From a bacterium (GTDB lineage: Bacteria; Pseudomonadota; Alphaproteobacteria; Rhizobiales; Aestuariivirgaceae): a DNA stretch of 43,216 nucleotides. The position numbers were made by a program, and so were the translations under genes. Shown here in pieces: positions 28,731 to 40,025 of this stretch (its first letter is position 1; each line of letters begins with the position of its first letter). The stretch lies in contig JALHQC010000036.1 of assembly GCA_022842165.1 (NCBI GenBank), positions 1 to 43,216 on the forward strand, written 5' to 3'. A model generated the notes under the pieces. That model did not search any database. It was not told where the DNA came from and saw nothing but the letters and a program-made list of their open reading frames with translations.

Positions 28731-28805
28731 GCTGCCGTAGCTCAGTGGTAGAGCACTCCCTTGGTAAGGGAGAGGTCGTGGGTTCGATTCCCCCTGGCAG
28801 CACCA
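28731..28805 (+). tRNA. tRNA-Thr (GGT), integration target
   Basis: A full cloverleaf. The acceptor pairs GCTGCCG with TGGCAGC and CCA is encoded (28803-28805). The anticodon arm CTCCC TTGGTAA GGGAG gives anticodon GGT (threonine). The T loop is GTTCGATTC. The 3' 45 bases are part of the 46-bp repeat that recurs at 39980-40025, so the mobile element entered here and rebuilt an intact tRNA at its left end. Confidence 0.97.
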
Positions 28806-28806
28806 T
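28761..28806 (+). repeat. attL: 46-bp direct repeat in tRNA-Thr
   Basis: Runs from the anticodon loop (TTGGTAAGGG) through CCA plus one base, and is identical to 39980-40025. The flanking bases differ (C versus A on the left, C versus T on the right), so 46 bases is the exact repeat. This is the left attachment site of the integrated element. Confidence 0.95.
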
Positions 28807-28939
28807 CAACCCCTCTGAAATAAAAGACTTTTCCGATGAGCACTCCCGGTGCAATCGGCAGGATCGTGCGGAACGAAGCACGAAAACACGCTCGAATACG
28901 GGGAAAATCCGGGGACTTACGTTCTGTGACTGTTCGCAG

Positions 28940-29401
28940 TTGGCTATTGGCAGTCTTCGGCAAAAGCACATCGATCGACTTTCAAAGCTGGGTGTTCCGC
29001 CGGTCGCAATCGTCCATCCAACGATCACTGAGATCGCCGAGATCGAGGGTGTATCGTGGTTGTGCTTTCCTGAGCAGTTTGGCTGGGTGCTGTGGCAGCC
29101 GACGACGGGCGAAATCATGGTGGATGATCGCCGGATATTTGCGCTCGGCGAAGATCTAATCGACGACCCCAGCGCCACGGCGCTCGATCAATGGCTCCAT
29201 ATCTTCGCGACACCACTTGACTGGCTGCGGGCGGCACGACGCGGCATTGTCGTTCTGCGCTGGGATCTCGCCTTCGACATGTTGCGCGATGTGGATCGCA
29301 TCGCCCTCTCTGAGCAGCTCCTCGGGACTTACAAGCAAAGCATGAGGCCGCGACGGCTGCCGAAGCTGGGCGTGATCCAGGAGGCGTCGGCTGCAGCATG
29401 A
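28940..29401 (+). CDS. Hypothetical protein at the left end of the element
   Basis: About 153 residues from TTG 28940, function unknown. The frame is clearly coding (for example VPPVAIVHPTITEIAEIEG, then FGWVLWQPTTGEIMVDDRRIF and PLDWLRAARRGIVVLRW). The reading frame stays open back through the tRNA with no ATG or GTG, so the start is unsure. The first in-frame ATG is at 29117. The N-terminus may be truncated or start at TTG. Its stop overlaps the ATG of the helicase gene (ATGA), so the two are coupled. It may act with the helicase in replication. Confidence 0.55.
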   Translation: MAIGSLRQKHIDRLSKLGVPPVAIVHPTITEIAEIEGVSWLCFPEQFGWVLWQPTTGEIMVDDRRIFALGEDLIDDPSATALDQWLHIFATPLDWLRAARRGIVVLRWDLAFDMLRDVDRIALSEQLLGTYKQSMRPRRLPKLGVIQEASAAA

Positions 29402-30813
29402 GCGAGGTCATACCGGTTTCGGAATTCCAGAAGGCAAAGAGCCGAAAGAGCAAGGCGGGCAGTCCACCGCCTGCCAGCCCCGATGATGCACTGCCCCCGG
29501 AGTACAGCGAAGAGCGGCTGGCGCTGGCATTTGTGGAGCGGCACCACTCACGGCTTCGTTATGTGGCGCTGTGGAGCAGGTGGTTCAGTTACCAAGGCAC
29601 GGTCTGGAAGCAGGATGGCACGCTCGAGATATTTGACCTGGTGCGAAGCTTGTGTCGATCGGTTGCCGCCGGCTGTCCAGAAAGGAAAATTGCAACACTT
29701 ATCGCCAGCGCGAAGACAGTTTCAGCGGTCGAAAGGCTGGCGCGGTCTGATCGCCGTGTAGCGGCAACTATTGAACAGTGGGACGCTGATCCCTGGCTGC
29801 TTAACACGCCCGATGGCGTGGTCGATTTGAAGACGGGTATCATGCGGCCGACGAAACCCGAAGACTATATGACCAAGTGTACCAGCGTCGCTCCTGGCGG
29901 AGAATGGGAGGCCTGGCACGAATTCCTTGCAAAGGTCACGGATGGCAACGATGAGCAGCAGGCTTATCTCCGCCGACTTGTCGGCTACGCATTGACCGGC
30001 GACATGAGTGATCACGTCCTGGCCTTTGCCCATGGCACGGGTGCCAACGGGAAAAGCGTGTTCATCAACACCATCGCCGGGATCATGGGTGACTATCACC
30101 GGTCCACTTCCGCTTCGCTGTTCATGGAATCGCATCACGAGCAGCATCCGACTGAGCTTGCGTCATTGCGGGGGGCTCGCTTGGTCACCGCGACGGAGGT
30201 TGAGGAGGGGCGGCGATGGAAAGAGGGTCTCATCAAGCTCGTCACTGGCGGCGATATCATTTCAGCGCGCTTCATGCGGCAGGACAATTTCGAGTTCAAG
30301 AGCACGGCGAAGCTGGTTTTCGTTGGCAATCATCAGCCGGCGTTGCGCAACGTCGATGAGGCCATGAGGCGGCGGCTTCATTTGATCCCCTTCAACATCA
30401 CCATACCGCCTTCGGAACGCGATCCCGACCTGTCGCGGAAGCTGCAGAATGAGTGGCCCGGCATCCTCGATTGGGCGATCAAGGGCTGTCTGGATTGGCA
30501 GGCGAAGGGACTGGTGCCGCCGGCGGCAGTGAAGGACGCAACATCGCATTACTTCGAAAATCAGGATGCCTTTGGTTCATGGCTCGATGACAGGTGCGAG
30601 CGCAATGCACAGGCATGGACCAGCTCGACCGATCTTTTCAACTCGTGGCGTGGCTGGGCAACCGATGCTGGTGAGTTTGTCGGCAACACCCGGCGCTTCA
30701 TGCAAGGTCTTGAAAATAGGGGATTTATGTCTGTCCGGCGGATGTATGGACGTGGCTTCGCAGGTATTCGATTGAAGGAGAAGAGTGGTGATGATCAGCG
30801 CACATCGCTGTGA
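29398..30813 (+). CDS. Phage/plasmid primase-like SF3 helicase (P4/D5 family)
   Basis: A 471-residue replication protein. A D5_N-like region (about 40-210, with LRYVALWSRWFSYQGTVW, WLLNTPDGVVDLKTG) is followed by an SF3 helicase domain with Walker A GTGANGKS (213-220), then ASLRGARLVTATEVEEGRRW, KLVTGGDIISARFMRQDNFEF and KLVFVGNHQPALRN (sensor/Walker-like). The C-terminal part resembles the winged-helix D5 tail. The classical N-terminal primase domain of P4 alpha is absent, so it may unwind DNA only. A candidate origin lies immediately downstream. Confidence 0.9.
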   Translation: MSEVIPVSEFQKAKSRKSKAGSPPPASPDDALPPEYSEERLALAFVERHHSRLRYVALWSRWFSYQGTVWKQDGTLEIFDLVRSLCRSVAAGCPERKIATLIASAKTVSAVERLARSDRRVAATIEQWDADPWLLNTPDGVVDLKTGIMRPTKPEDYMTKCTSVAPGGEWEAWHEFLAKVTDGNDEQQAYLRRLVGYALTGDMSDHVLAFAHGTGANGKSVFINTIAGIMGDYHRSTSASLFMESHHEQHPTELASLRGARLVTATEVEEGRRWKEGLIKLVTGGDIISARFMRQDNFEFKSTAKLVFVGNHQPALRNVDEAMRRRLHLIPFNITIPPSERDPDLSRKLQNEWPGILDWAIKGCLDWQAKGLVPPAAVKDATSHYFENQDAFGSWLDDRCERNAQAWTSSTDLFNSWRGWATDAGEFVGNTRRFMQGLENRGFMSVRRMYGRGFAGIRLKEKSGDDQRTSL

Positions 30814-38769: not shown

Positions 38770-39128
38770 CCATCAAGCTTCACACTCTCGAGGAGGTCGC
38801 CGAACGGTTCAGGGTGAGCCGCCGCACCATGCAGGAATTGGTGAAGGCTCATCCCTACTACCGCTCGATCGGCCGCCGTAAGCTGTTCTCCGAGGCGGAT
38901 ATTGCCGCCCTCTATGAGGCCCTGCCATGTCCCTCACACTCAAGCGCCGCCACGGCTCACCGTTCTGGTATCTCCGTGGCACCGTCAGAGGCATCACTGT
39001 GGACGAAAGCACAGGCCTTGTTGACCATGCCGCCGCCGAAGCGCTCCGGACGCGGCGTGAGTGGGAGATCACGCAAGGCAGCGTGTTCGGCCGTCGTGCT
39101 ACCGCTACCTTCCTCGAGGCAGCGGTGA
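38766..39128 (+). CDS. AlpA/excisionase-like HTH protein
   Basis: A 120-residue protein. Residues 5-55 (TLEEVAERFRVSRRTMQELV, then YYRSIGRRKLFSEADIAALYEAL) are a MerR/AlpA-type winged HTH, as in excisionases and satellite activators. The tail PCPSHSSAATAHRSGISVAPSE (part) is Ser/Ala-rich, and from residue 55 onward the gene shares DNA with the integrase in another frame (202 bases). GTG 38766 overlaps the previous stop. It probably controls excision or activates the element. Confidence 0.75.
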   Translation: MTIKLHTLEEVAERFRVSRRTMQELVKAHPYYRSIGRRKLFSEADIAALYEALPCPSHSSAATAHRSGISVAPSEASLWTKAQALLTMPPPKRSGRGVSGRSRKAACSAVVLPLPSSRQR

Positions 39129-39955
39129 GCTATATGGAAGCTGGCGGCGAGGCGCGTTTCCTGAAACCGATCATCACGGCGATCGGCGGGAAACGTCTCG
39201 CCGACGTCGATCAAACCGAGATCGAAAAGTTGGCGCGCCGCCTTTATCCTGGGCGGGCACCCGCGACTCTCAACCGCCAGGTCTATGCGCCGATCTCGGC
39301 CGTTCTGAAACACGCGCATGTGCGCAAGCTCTGCGACTATCAGAAGATCGAGCGTCTGGCGGAGCCCAAGGGCCGCGTGCGGTGGATCACCGAGGCGCAG
39401 GCTGATCGGCTCATTGATGGCGCTGCAGATCACTTGCGGCCGCTGGTGATCTTCCTGCTCTACACGGGCGCCAGGCTATCCGAGGCGCTCTATCTCGACT
39501 GGCAGTATCTCGACCTGGCGCGCGCTCATGTGACCTTCACCAACACCAAGAACGGTGATGAGCGGGGCGTTCCCCTTCACCAGCGGGTTATTGCCGCCCT
39601 AGCAAACCTGAAACACCGCTCAGGCGCTGTTTTCCGAAGGCCAGACGGCAAACCCTACGAAGAGAAGGACAACGGCGGCGGCCAGATCAAGACGGCCTTC
39701 AAGGGTGCTTGCAAGCGGGCTGGCATCGAAGATTTTTCACCGCATGATTGCCGCCACACCTGGGCAACATGGCATTACGCTGCCAACCGCGATTTGCTGG
39801 CCTTGAAGTCGCTGGGCGGATGGAAATCGGAGCGCATGGTGTTCCGCTATGCGCATGTCAATACGTCCGAACATGCTCACACCATCGATCGCCTTCCATG
39901 GGGGAATTCCGGGGAGGCGTCTAAACCCGCTCAAAAAAAGAAAACAAAAACATGA
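38927..39955 (+). CDS. int: Tyrosine recombinase (integrase)
   Basis: A 342-residue site-specific recombinase. Catalytic residues are visible: Arg183 (LLYTGARLSEAL), His273-x2-Arg276 (SPHDCRHTW), Trp299 (LGGWKS) and Tyr308 (MVFRYAHVN). The N-terminal arm-binding part MSLTLKRRHGSPFWYLRGTVRG fits integrases of alphaproteobacterial elements. It lies 25 bases from attR and reads toward it. The C-terminus ends in a Lys-rich tail. This enzyme would have catalysed insertion into tRNA-Thr. The start overlaps the upstream HTH gene by 202 bases. Confidence 0.94.
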   Translation: MSLTLKRRHGSPFWYLRGTVRGITVDESTGLVDHAAAEALRTRREWEITQGSVFGRRATATFLEAAVSYMEAGGEARFLKPIITAIGGKRLADVDQTEIEKLARRLYPGRAPATLNRQVYAPISAVLKHAHVRKLCDYQKIERLAEPKGRVRWITEAQADRLIDGAADHLRPLVIFLLYTGARLSEALYLDWQYLDLARAHVTFTNTKNGDERGVPLHQRVIAALANLKHRSGAVFRRPDGKPYEEKDNGGGQIKTAFKGACKRAGIEDFSPHDCRHTWATWHYAANRDLLALKSLGGWKSERMVFRYAHVNTSEHAHTIDRLPWGNSGEASKPAQKKKTKT

Positions 39956-39979
39956 GCATAGCAATTCTCAATCACAACA

Positions 39980-40025
39980 TTGGTAAGGGAGAGGTCGTGG
40001 GTTCGATTCCCCCTGGCAGCACCAT
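39980..40025 (+). repeat. attR: 46-bp direct repeat
   Basis: Identical to 28761-28806, an orphan copy of the tRNA-Thr 3' part without the 5' half, which marks the right end of the element. The chromosomal copper-storage-like gene ends 13 bases beyond. Confidence 0.95.

Follow-up and report, generated by a model that had tools for sequence, protein, structure and literature searches.

A probable tail-less phage satellite with its own head genes, in a tRNA-Thr gene of an alphaproteobacterium

The window considered here is a stretch of 43,216 nucleotides (GenBank assembly GCA_022842165.1, contig JALHQC010000036.1, positions 1 to 43,216 of the forward strand) from a bacterium of the Aestuariivirgaceae (Alphaproteobacteria, Rhizobiales). 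Towards its right-hand end it carries an integrated element that encodes the parts of a phage head and is best read as a phage satellite (Table 1). The element is flanked by exact 46-bp direct repeats with a spacing of 11,219 bp; the left copy forms the 3′ part of a tRNA-Thr (ggt) gene called by ARAGORN, and Rfam (RF00005) agrees with this call. The perfect attachment-site (att) repeats in tRNA-Thr that a first-pass annotation had described are thereby borne out. By our own estimate, made without a shuffle run, a 46-bp repeat is not expected by chance within 14 kb. The GC content is 58.7% inside the element and 63.5% across the rest of the window. Over the element, Rfam recognises the tRNA alone at its gathering score, and no other non-coding RNA.

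The genes between the repeats lie on the plus strand, and many abut or overlap. They provide a capsid, a maturation protease, a portal, a connector and both terminase subunits (small, TerS; large, TerL), as is the case for capsid-forming phage-inducible chromosomal islands (cf-PICIs), whose head and packaging genes are their own and whose tails must come from a helper (PMC10690885; here and below, statements with a PMC number refer to parts of the paper concerned). Profile matches support the integrase, AlpA-like helix-turn-helix protein, terminases, portal, protease–capsid fusion and gpW-like connector of the first-pass annotation. Its statement that tail and lysis genes are absent holds as well; no tail or lysis family, and no HNH family, is matched in the 15 open reading frames (ORFs) of the element scanned by profile. 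The proposed P4/D5 helicase stands as a P4-family protein whose match to the primase families is confined to their C-terminal part; the N-terminal primase part is not recognised. Similarly, the helix-turn-helix protein matches HTH_17 and excisionase-type profiles, while the AlpA family PF05930 gives no match at E 0.1. PADLOC finds no defence gene among seven unassigned ORFs. Between the helicase and TerS genes there is an inverted repeat with a GC-rich inner stretch, a possible candidate for an origin or packaging signal.

Table 1. Features of the element and its integration site (positions refer to the window)
Positions	Strand	Feature	Evidence
28731..28805	+	tRNA-Thr (ggt), integration target, intact thanks to left repeat	ARAGORN; RF00005
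28761..28806		attL, 46-bp perfect direct repeat	exact-repeat search
28871..29401	+	ORF, start not settled, without Pfam or PHROG family	profile scans
29398..30813	+	P4/D5-family helicase, C-terminal part of primase families, 471 aa	PF08706 1e-29, TIGR01613 1e-87
30816..30912		inverted repeat, 24-nt arms 92% complementary, 3′ of helicase	repeat search
30934..31125	+	small ORF, 63 aa; few relatives have homologues, mostly upstream of TerS	homology
31252..31710	+	TerS, Nu1 type	phrog_57 1.5e-23
31691..33466	+	TerL, GpA type, ATPase and nuclease domains	PF05876 3.6e-82, PF20454 4.4e-84
33510..34142	+	MerR-like regulator directly upstream of portal block	MerR_1 0.0029, below cut-off; CvkR 7xn2 E 9e-4
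34135..34392	+	small ORF overlapping portal start; no family (scanned from 34141)	start read from translation
34383..35765	+	portal, lambda family	PF05136 6e-81, TIGR01539 1e-77
35762..37558	+	prohead protease – helical linker – major capsid fusion, 598 aa	phrog_4523 2.5e-179 full length, NF045541 1e-197
37560..37772	+	head–tail joining protein (adaptor Ad1, gpW-like), after capsid	phrog_2545 3.8e-20, NF047331 2.2e-22
37773..38287		515 bp without recognisable gene; decoration-gene place in several relatives	no Rfam match
38288..38506	+	Cys-rich ORF, 72 aa, without family match	profile scans
38503..38769	+	ORF, 88 aa, without family match	profile scans
38766..39128	+	AlpA/excisionase-like helix-turn-helix protein	PF12728 (HTH_17) 6e-8, phrog_1840 5e-7, TIGR01764 2e-5 (below cut-off)
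38927..39955	+	tyrosine integrase	PF00589 2.5e-26, phrog_1 5e-51
39980..40025		attR, 46-bp perfect direct repeat	exact-repeat search

The capsid family occurs in 36 of 199 near relatives (E 1e-3). With the threshold set to E 1e-60, it is present in 71 of the 397 genomes sampled from the window's order and in 16 of 385 from its class. Up to 20 kb was fetched around each of 80 capsid matches, a subset of all matches, and loci from six phage records, five plasmid records and some public contigs were added; a Synechococcus elongatus plasmid was kept outside the tree. Genes were labelled in two phmmer rounds, with the window proteins and 42 tail proteins of these six phages as queries. The window's order of portal, capsid and joining protein recurs in 46 of the 96 usable capsid loci, 44 of which have no detected tail gene; the tail-less design for which the first-pass annotation suggested a search is therefore common among relatives, and the tail genes that it named as a sign of decay are found in neither these 44 nor the window. 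The joining gene stands before the portal in 30 loci, 25 of them with tail genes, and is undetected in 20. In the six phage records it lies between TerL and portal, as seen by phmmer for L071 and L133–L135 and by annotation for L136 and L137. Most tail-less loci whose stretch is long enough hold portal, terminase and joining protein together. A PHROG search with 172 of 173 unassigned ORFs from 24 att-bounded relatives (L055 was set aside) gives decoration, regulator, replication and integrase families; among the best 25 of 45 and the best 25 of 54 families, tail families are absent.

Many of these relatives are delimited in the same manner as the element in the window. Exact repeats of at least 16 bp that enclose the capsid gene and overlap a tRNA gene, or lie within 30 bases of one, are present in 26 of 48 loci searched (window included). 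The 26 elements thus bounded measure 9,195–15,354 bp (median 11,908), a narrow range that would fit a fixed head volume. Their targets are tRNAs for Thr, Pro, Gly, Phe, Met, Glu, Arg, Ser, His and Gln. In L038, the nearest relative (capsid 59–61% identical), a tRNA-Thr-like stretch lies just past the integrase (52 nt, 83%), and L043 has a further repeat (45 bp, 93%). L068, from Paracoccus versutus DSM 17099, is a complete relative, with TerS, TerL, portal, capsid, joining protein and integrase at a tRNA-Glu. Two elements att-bounded in tRNA-Gly, L045 at 7325–17248 (9.9 kb) and L097 at 1303–10497 (9.2 kb), have a capsid of the clade, with terminase and portal undetected.

Viral contigs extend the family further. 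At least 586 of 600 pattern matches in IMG/VR encode relatives, and 80 contigs were kept (L152–L231); the joining gene follows the capsid in 74 of these, and none of the 21 with at least 3 kb downstream shows a tail match. Most of the 80 look like family elements and not like complete phages. The two ends of one contig, L153, carry the same 127 bp in direct orientation, and joining them gives a circle of 11,371 bp. It encodes an integrase, both terminase subunits, the MerR-like protein, portal and capsid, and shows no tail match. Assemblers typically leave an overlap of 127 bases where they close a circle, so that L153 is probably a free circular form. Contig L044 was dropped as a candidate circle; other relatives are permuted in order, and no terminal overlap was found.

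The capsid itself is a fusion that matches phrog_4523 and NF045541 along its length, the latter above its cut-off. It also matches PF25209/PF10124, and PF05065 gives no match at E 0.1. An AlphaFold model from 41 window and whole-genome rows (mean predicted local distance difference test, pLDDT, 86; predicted template modelling score, pTM, 0.55) has a β-rich protease part (residues 21–148), helices at 186–263, interpreted here as a scaffold-like linker, and the capsid part at the C-terminus. His66 and Ser114, which we take to be the pair of an HK97-type protease, are conserved in 10 of 10 rows and in at least 90% of 41 rows. With Foldseek, the model retrieves many HK97-fold capsids, including those of SaPI1, Mu and the cf-PICI EcCI2 (9gyi, rank 32). 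At E 0.1 the capsid profile reaches only three PDB sequences, namely 8rkx (JBD30), 8rkc and 9jod (Mu), and both 8rkx and 8rkc carry the name Mu GpT-domain protein; EcCI2 9gyi is not reached at this threshold, and its likeness is in fold only. As judged from these matches, the capsid is Mu-gpT-related, and other than the PF05065 type on which the capsid tree of published cf-PICIs is based (PMC13230959).

Directly 5′ of the portal, many tail-less elements carry a gene of about 150–220 aa with a MerR-like start. The model of the window's protein has a mean pLDDT of 68.5, with about residues 11–70 mostly at 80–95; in a Foldseek search of the PDB, the MerR-type regulator CvkR (7xn2) is the best match and the sole one under E 0.001. 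Candidates were collected from 37 of 43 loci; five were dropped as wrong frames and one was swapped, leaving 32, of which a leave-one-out profile regains 24 at E <0.01. The protein probably regulates the head operon. The 7.8-kb plasmid of S. elongatus was dropped as a carrier of a MerR-like gene, with no match found.

Trees and substitution rates bear on how the family has been maintained. In a capsid tree of 96 rows the window falls in a starred tail-less set of 10 rows, with most phage-type rows elsewhere. A second tree, from which 18 of the 96 rows (long, partial or odd) were dropped, places the window in a 29-row set classed wholly as tail-less (28 rows with the order, plus L045), with a value of 99 in the Shimodaira–Hasegawa-like approximate likelihood ratio test; L098 is out of both trees. 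The tail-less label, given to L045 and to the 45 rows that have the order, requires two changes, as against 25.1 in shuffles, and one clade for all 46 tail-less rows, meaning a single origin, is not rejected by the approximately unbiased test (p-AU 0.48). For close pairs, the ratio of non-synonymous to synonymous substitution rates (dN/dS) is 0.15–0.46 for the capsid, 0.08–0.30 for the portal and 0.07–0.14 for TerL (0.28 in L082/L084), and these values place the head genes of close pairs under purifying selection. Among the matches listed, nearly all capsid genes are open frames without stops, and the stop-bearing exceptions are weak and partial; the inactivating mutations that the first-pass annotation would have counted as a sign of a decayed prophage are thus not a feature of most copies.

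Relatives of the element also move. Near-identical head proteins in L074 and in L075/L076 are combined with integrases that are only 28–29% identical and with other target tRNAs, which the sequences mark as an integrase module swap. L040, from the window's order, and L123, from another order of the class, have 87–95% of capsid, portal and TerL residues in common, and L066, on a Paracoccus plasmid, has 93–97% in common with L123; by this measure, family elements spread between orders. The annotation of L066 also places an HNH gene between TerL and portal. By our own classification, tail-less elements are present in 35 of 397 genomes of the window's order. Two plasmids are of a simpler build. 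The Rhodovastum plasmid RHOAph (L069; NZ_OW485609.1, 10,690 bp) has a MerR-like gene directly before the protease–capsid fusion, and its annotation, without terminase or portal, describes a capsid-only form. The S. elongatus plasmid (L070; NZ_CP006473.1, 7,842 bp) encodes an HK97-type prohead protease/capsid relative, 26.6% identical, and is possibly a satellite-plasmid.

Taken together, the element is best explained, with a probability of about 0.82, as a phage satellite that builds heads of its own, packages its own genome into them and borrows the tails of a helper. On the evidence of the comparisons above, it is a real and mostly intact-looking member of a widespread family of tail-less, capsid-forming satellites. 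Induction by a helper phage would lead to excision of the element, which would then be copied with its D5/P4-type helicase. The Nu1/GpA terminase would package the genome of about 11.2 kb, possibly in a cos-type manner by analogy with lambda, into small heads made of the protease–capsid fusion and the portal. The gpW-like joining protein would close these heads and dock them onto helper tails, with the helper phage supplying the tails and lysing the cell.

This picture is complicated by a number of points that weigh against it. Helper, particles and excised circle of this element are predictions from its sequence. No clear helper is found in the same genome, which has no GpA terminase match besides the TerL of the window. 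A Phage_tail_2 match there lies within a cluster on contig C43 (L138, L142) that resembles the gene transfer agent (GTA) of Rhodobacter (RcGTA) and has its own capsid and tail genes, and whose presence agrees with the alphaproteobacterial host named in the first-pass annotation; a tape-measure-like ORF at C12:1-1500 (L141) is cut by the contig start and may belong either to an assembly-broken prophage or to another tail locus. In that genome phrog_28 gives no match, though it does in 6 of 14 control genomes, and the tail tube of a related phage, used as a query without a positive control, gives none. Tail-less and other capsid-family elements share a genome in 3 of 397 cases, which is no excess (P 0.36), with 15 of the 71 capsid-bearing genomes left unclassed. 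In 69 family genomes, among the matches listed, the left flank with the tRNA is matched and the right flank is not, and the joined flanks of an empty site find no contiguous match.

The tail search has its own limits. Among the 42 tail reference proteins, seven were picked by position from a phage record that gives no product names (L134), which weakens the search, and five of the 30 phage-order loci also lack a tail match, so that some tails are missed. Some of the 46 stretches stop soon past the capsid (L040 after 1.1 kb, L123 after 1.9 kb, L097 after 2.3 kb) and are weaker tests; the PHROG family lists hold the best 25 of 116, of 45 and of 54. In the second tree the tail-less label covers L045, in which joining gene, terminase and portal are undetected, and the other label takes in some rows without a tail match. 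Each of the two exceptions among the 46, L055 (15.4 kb) and L124, has one tape-measure-like gene (2535–4919 and 9086–11659, respectively), with no further tail genes detected there; such a gene could impose a new length on a borrowed tail, and there is a published mention of satellites in which few tail genes other than a tape measure accompany the capsid (PMC10448857). Tail matches occur in 2 of the 80 IMG/VR contigs, and the circular L153, in which the joining gene is undetected, could represent a plasmid state. While 13 of the 26 att repeats are at least 45 bp long, the other 13 have only 16–22 bp and come without a chance control. The window has no decoration gene, and no relic of one is detected at 37773–38287, where such a gene (PF09956/phrog_122) stands in several relatives. 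The window's own copy allows no measure of selection, as its sole near pair is saturated (capsid dS 1.42, ratio 0.25), and the joining gene of L039/L040, an over-long ORF, has a dN/dS near 1. Neither universality nor specificity of the MerR-like gene is shown, because two ORFs outside the pre-portal position, in L111 and L039, score equally on the profile and the gene is found at E 0.01 in 18 of 60 IMG/VR loci with enough upstream DNA.

One rival reading is a prophage in recent decay, with its tail and lysis genes gone: related head proteins do occur in tailed phages and prophages, and the window lacks a decoration gene and has 515 bp without a recognised gene. The relatives largely refute this. 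The same order in nearly half of the loci falls in few clades apart from most phage-type rows; the joining gene follows the capsid, whereas tailed phages have it before the portal; sizes cluster near 12 kb; and close pairs show purifying selection on their head genes. Recent decay is therefore very unlikely. That the element is a cf-PICI by descent, beyond a shared way of working, is highly unlikely. The two share gene kinds, from integrase, AlpA-like and P4-type replication proteins through both terminases, portal, protease and capsid to the adaptor, both are tail-less, and their sizes are similar (cf-PICI average 14 kb; PMC10803314). However, the capsid belongs to PF25209/PF10124 and not PF05065, its profile finds Mu and JBD30 and not EcCI2, no HNH gene appears in the scanned ORFs, and the main cf-PICI hosts given in that part of PMC10803314 do not name Alphaproteobacteria.

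The remaining alternatives concern what such heads would carry and how they would leave the cell. Heads that leave tail-less, or transfer of a head-bearing element in plasmid form or through conjugation, would suit the circular L153 without detected joining gene and the 10.7-kb Rhodovastum plasmid, whose capsid gene comes without annotated terminase or portal. This is nevertheless most improbable. Most tail-less loci of sufficient length retain the portal, terminase and joining protein as a set, as expected of heads made for a tail. A GTA-like or host-domesticated head that packages host DNA could in principle obtain tails from the RcGTA-like cluster of the same genome. We regard this as extremely improbable, because integrase, excisionase-like gene and att repeats, a patchy presence (the capsid family is in 71 of the 397 genomes sampled from the order), the exchange of integrases and transfer across orders all fit a selfish mobile element.

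The satellite reading invites comparison with known systems. The first-pass annotation's label 'cf-PICI-like' is apt for build and gene set, but not as membership: the element resembles EcCIEDL933 and EcCI2 in being integrated and in its inventory of genes, and should not be filed as a cf-PICI, because its capsid is of another sequence family and no HNH gene is found. An HNH endonuclease is part of the cf-PICI packaging module (PMC10690885), an AlpA homologue and a Pri-Rep replication initiator are cf-PICI traits (PMC10448857), and cf-PICI capsids fall into three radiations (PMC11389934). The element differs from cf-PICIs in its Mu-gpT-type capsid fused to the protease, GpA terminase, lambda-type portal, MerR-like gene before the portal, and hosts. 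Closest in head proteins are the Rhodobacter phages RcMamaDuck and RcFrancesLouise and related prophages, with homologous TerL, portal, fusion (capsid 35% identical) and joining protein; unlike the element, these are phages of 37.6–42.1 kb with full tails and the joining gene before the portal. The Streptomyces satellites MulchRoom and MiniFlayer, likened here by description only, bring head and packaging genes of their own, and MulchRoom is thought to rely on the tail of its helper, but they differ in having direct terminal repeats and virulent helpers (PMC10690885). P4-like satellites share the P4-family primase/helicase part, integration and a size of about 10–12 kb; P4, however, takes capsid and terminase from its helper (PMC10690885), whereas the element encodes its own capsid, portal and terminase. 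GTAs lack an integration system of their own, while the element has integrase and att repeats.

Own-head satellites have been reported mainly from Enterobacteriaceae and Firmicutes groups (PMC10803314). Our literature search, which covers few subscription journals, gives no account of such elements in Alphaproteobacteria, which is weak evidence of novelty. We think it fairly probable that the elements form a separate, old satellite family in this class, derived from a lambda/Mu-type head module independently of cf-PICIs, with a genome near 12 kb, a gpW-like gene behind the capsid, and control by a CvkR-like MerR protein.

By its gene content, then, the element works like a cf-PICI and is built from another head module. 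The same use of a different head module suggests that the stealing of tails alone evolved more than once, and the family offers many natural head–tail pairings to test. Its relatives in IMG/VR are held as viral contigs and may be counted as phages or fragments, and the number of pattern matches suggests that there are many more. In a class known for gene transfer agents, such satellites would be a possible further carrier of horizontal transfer.

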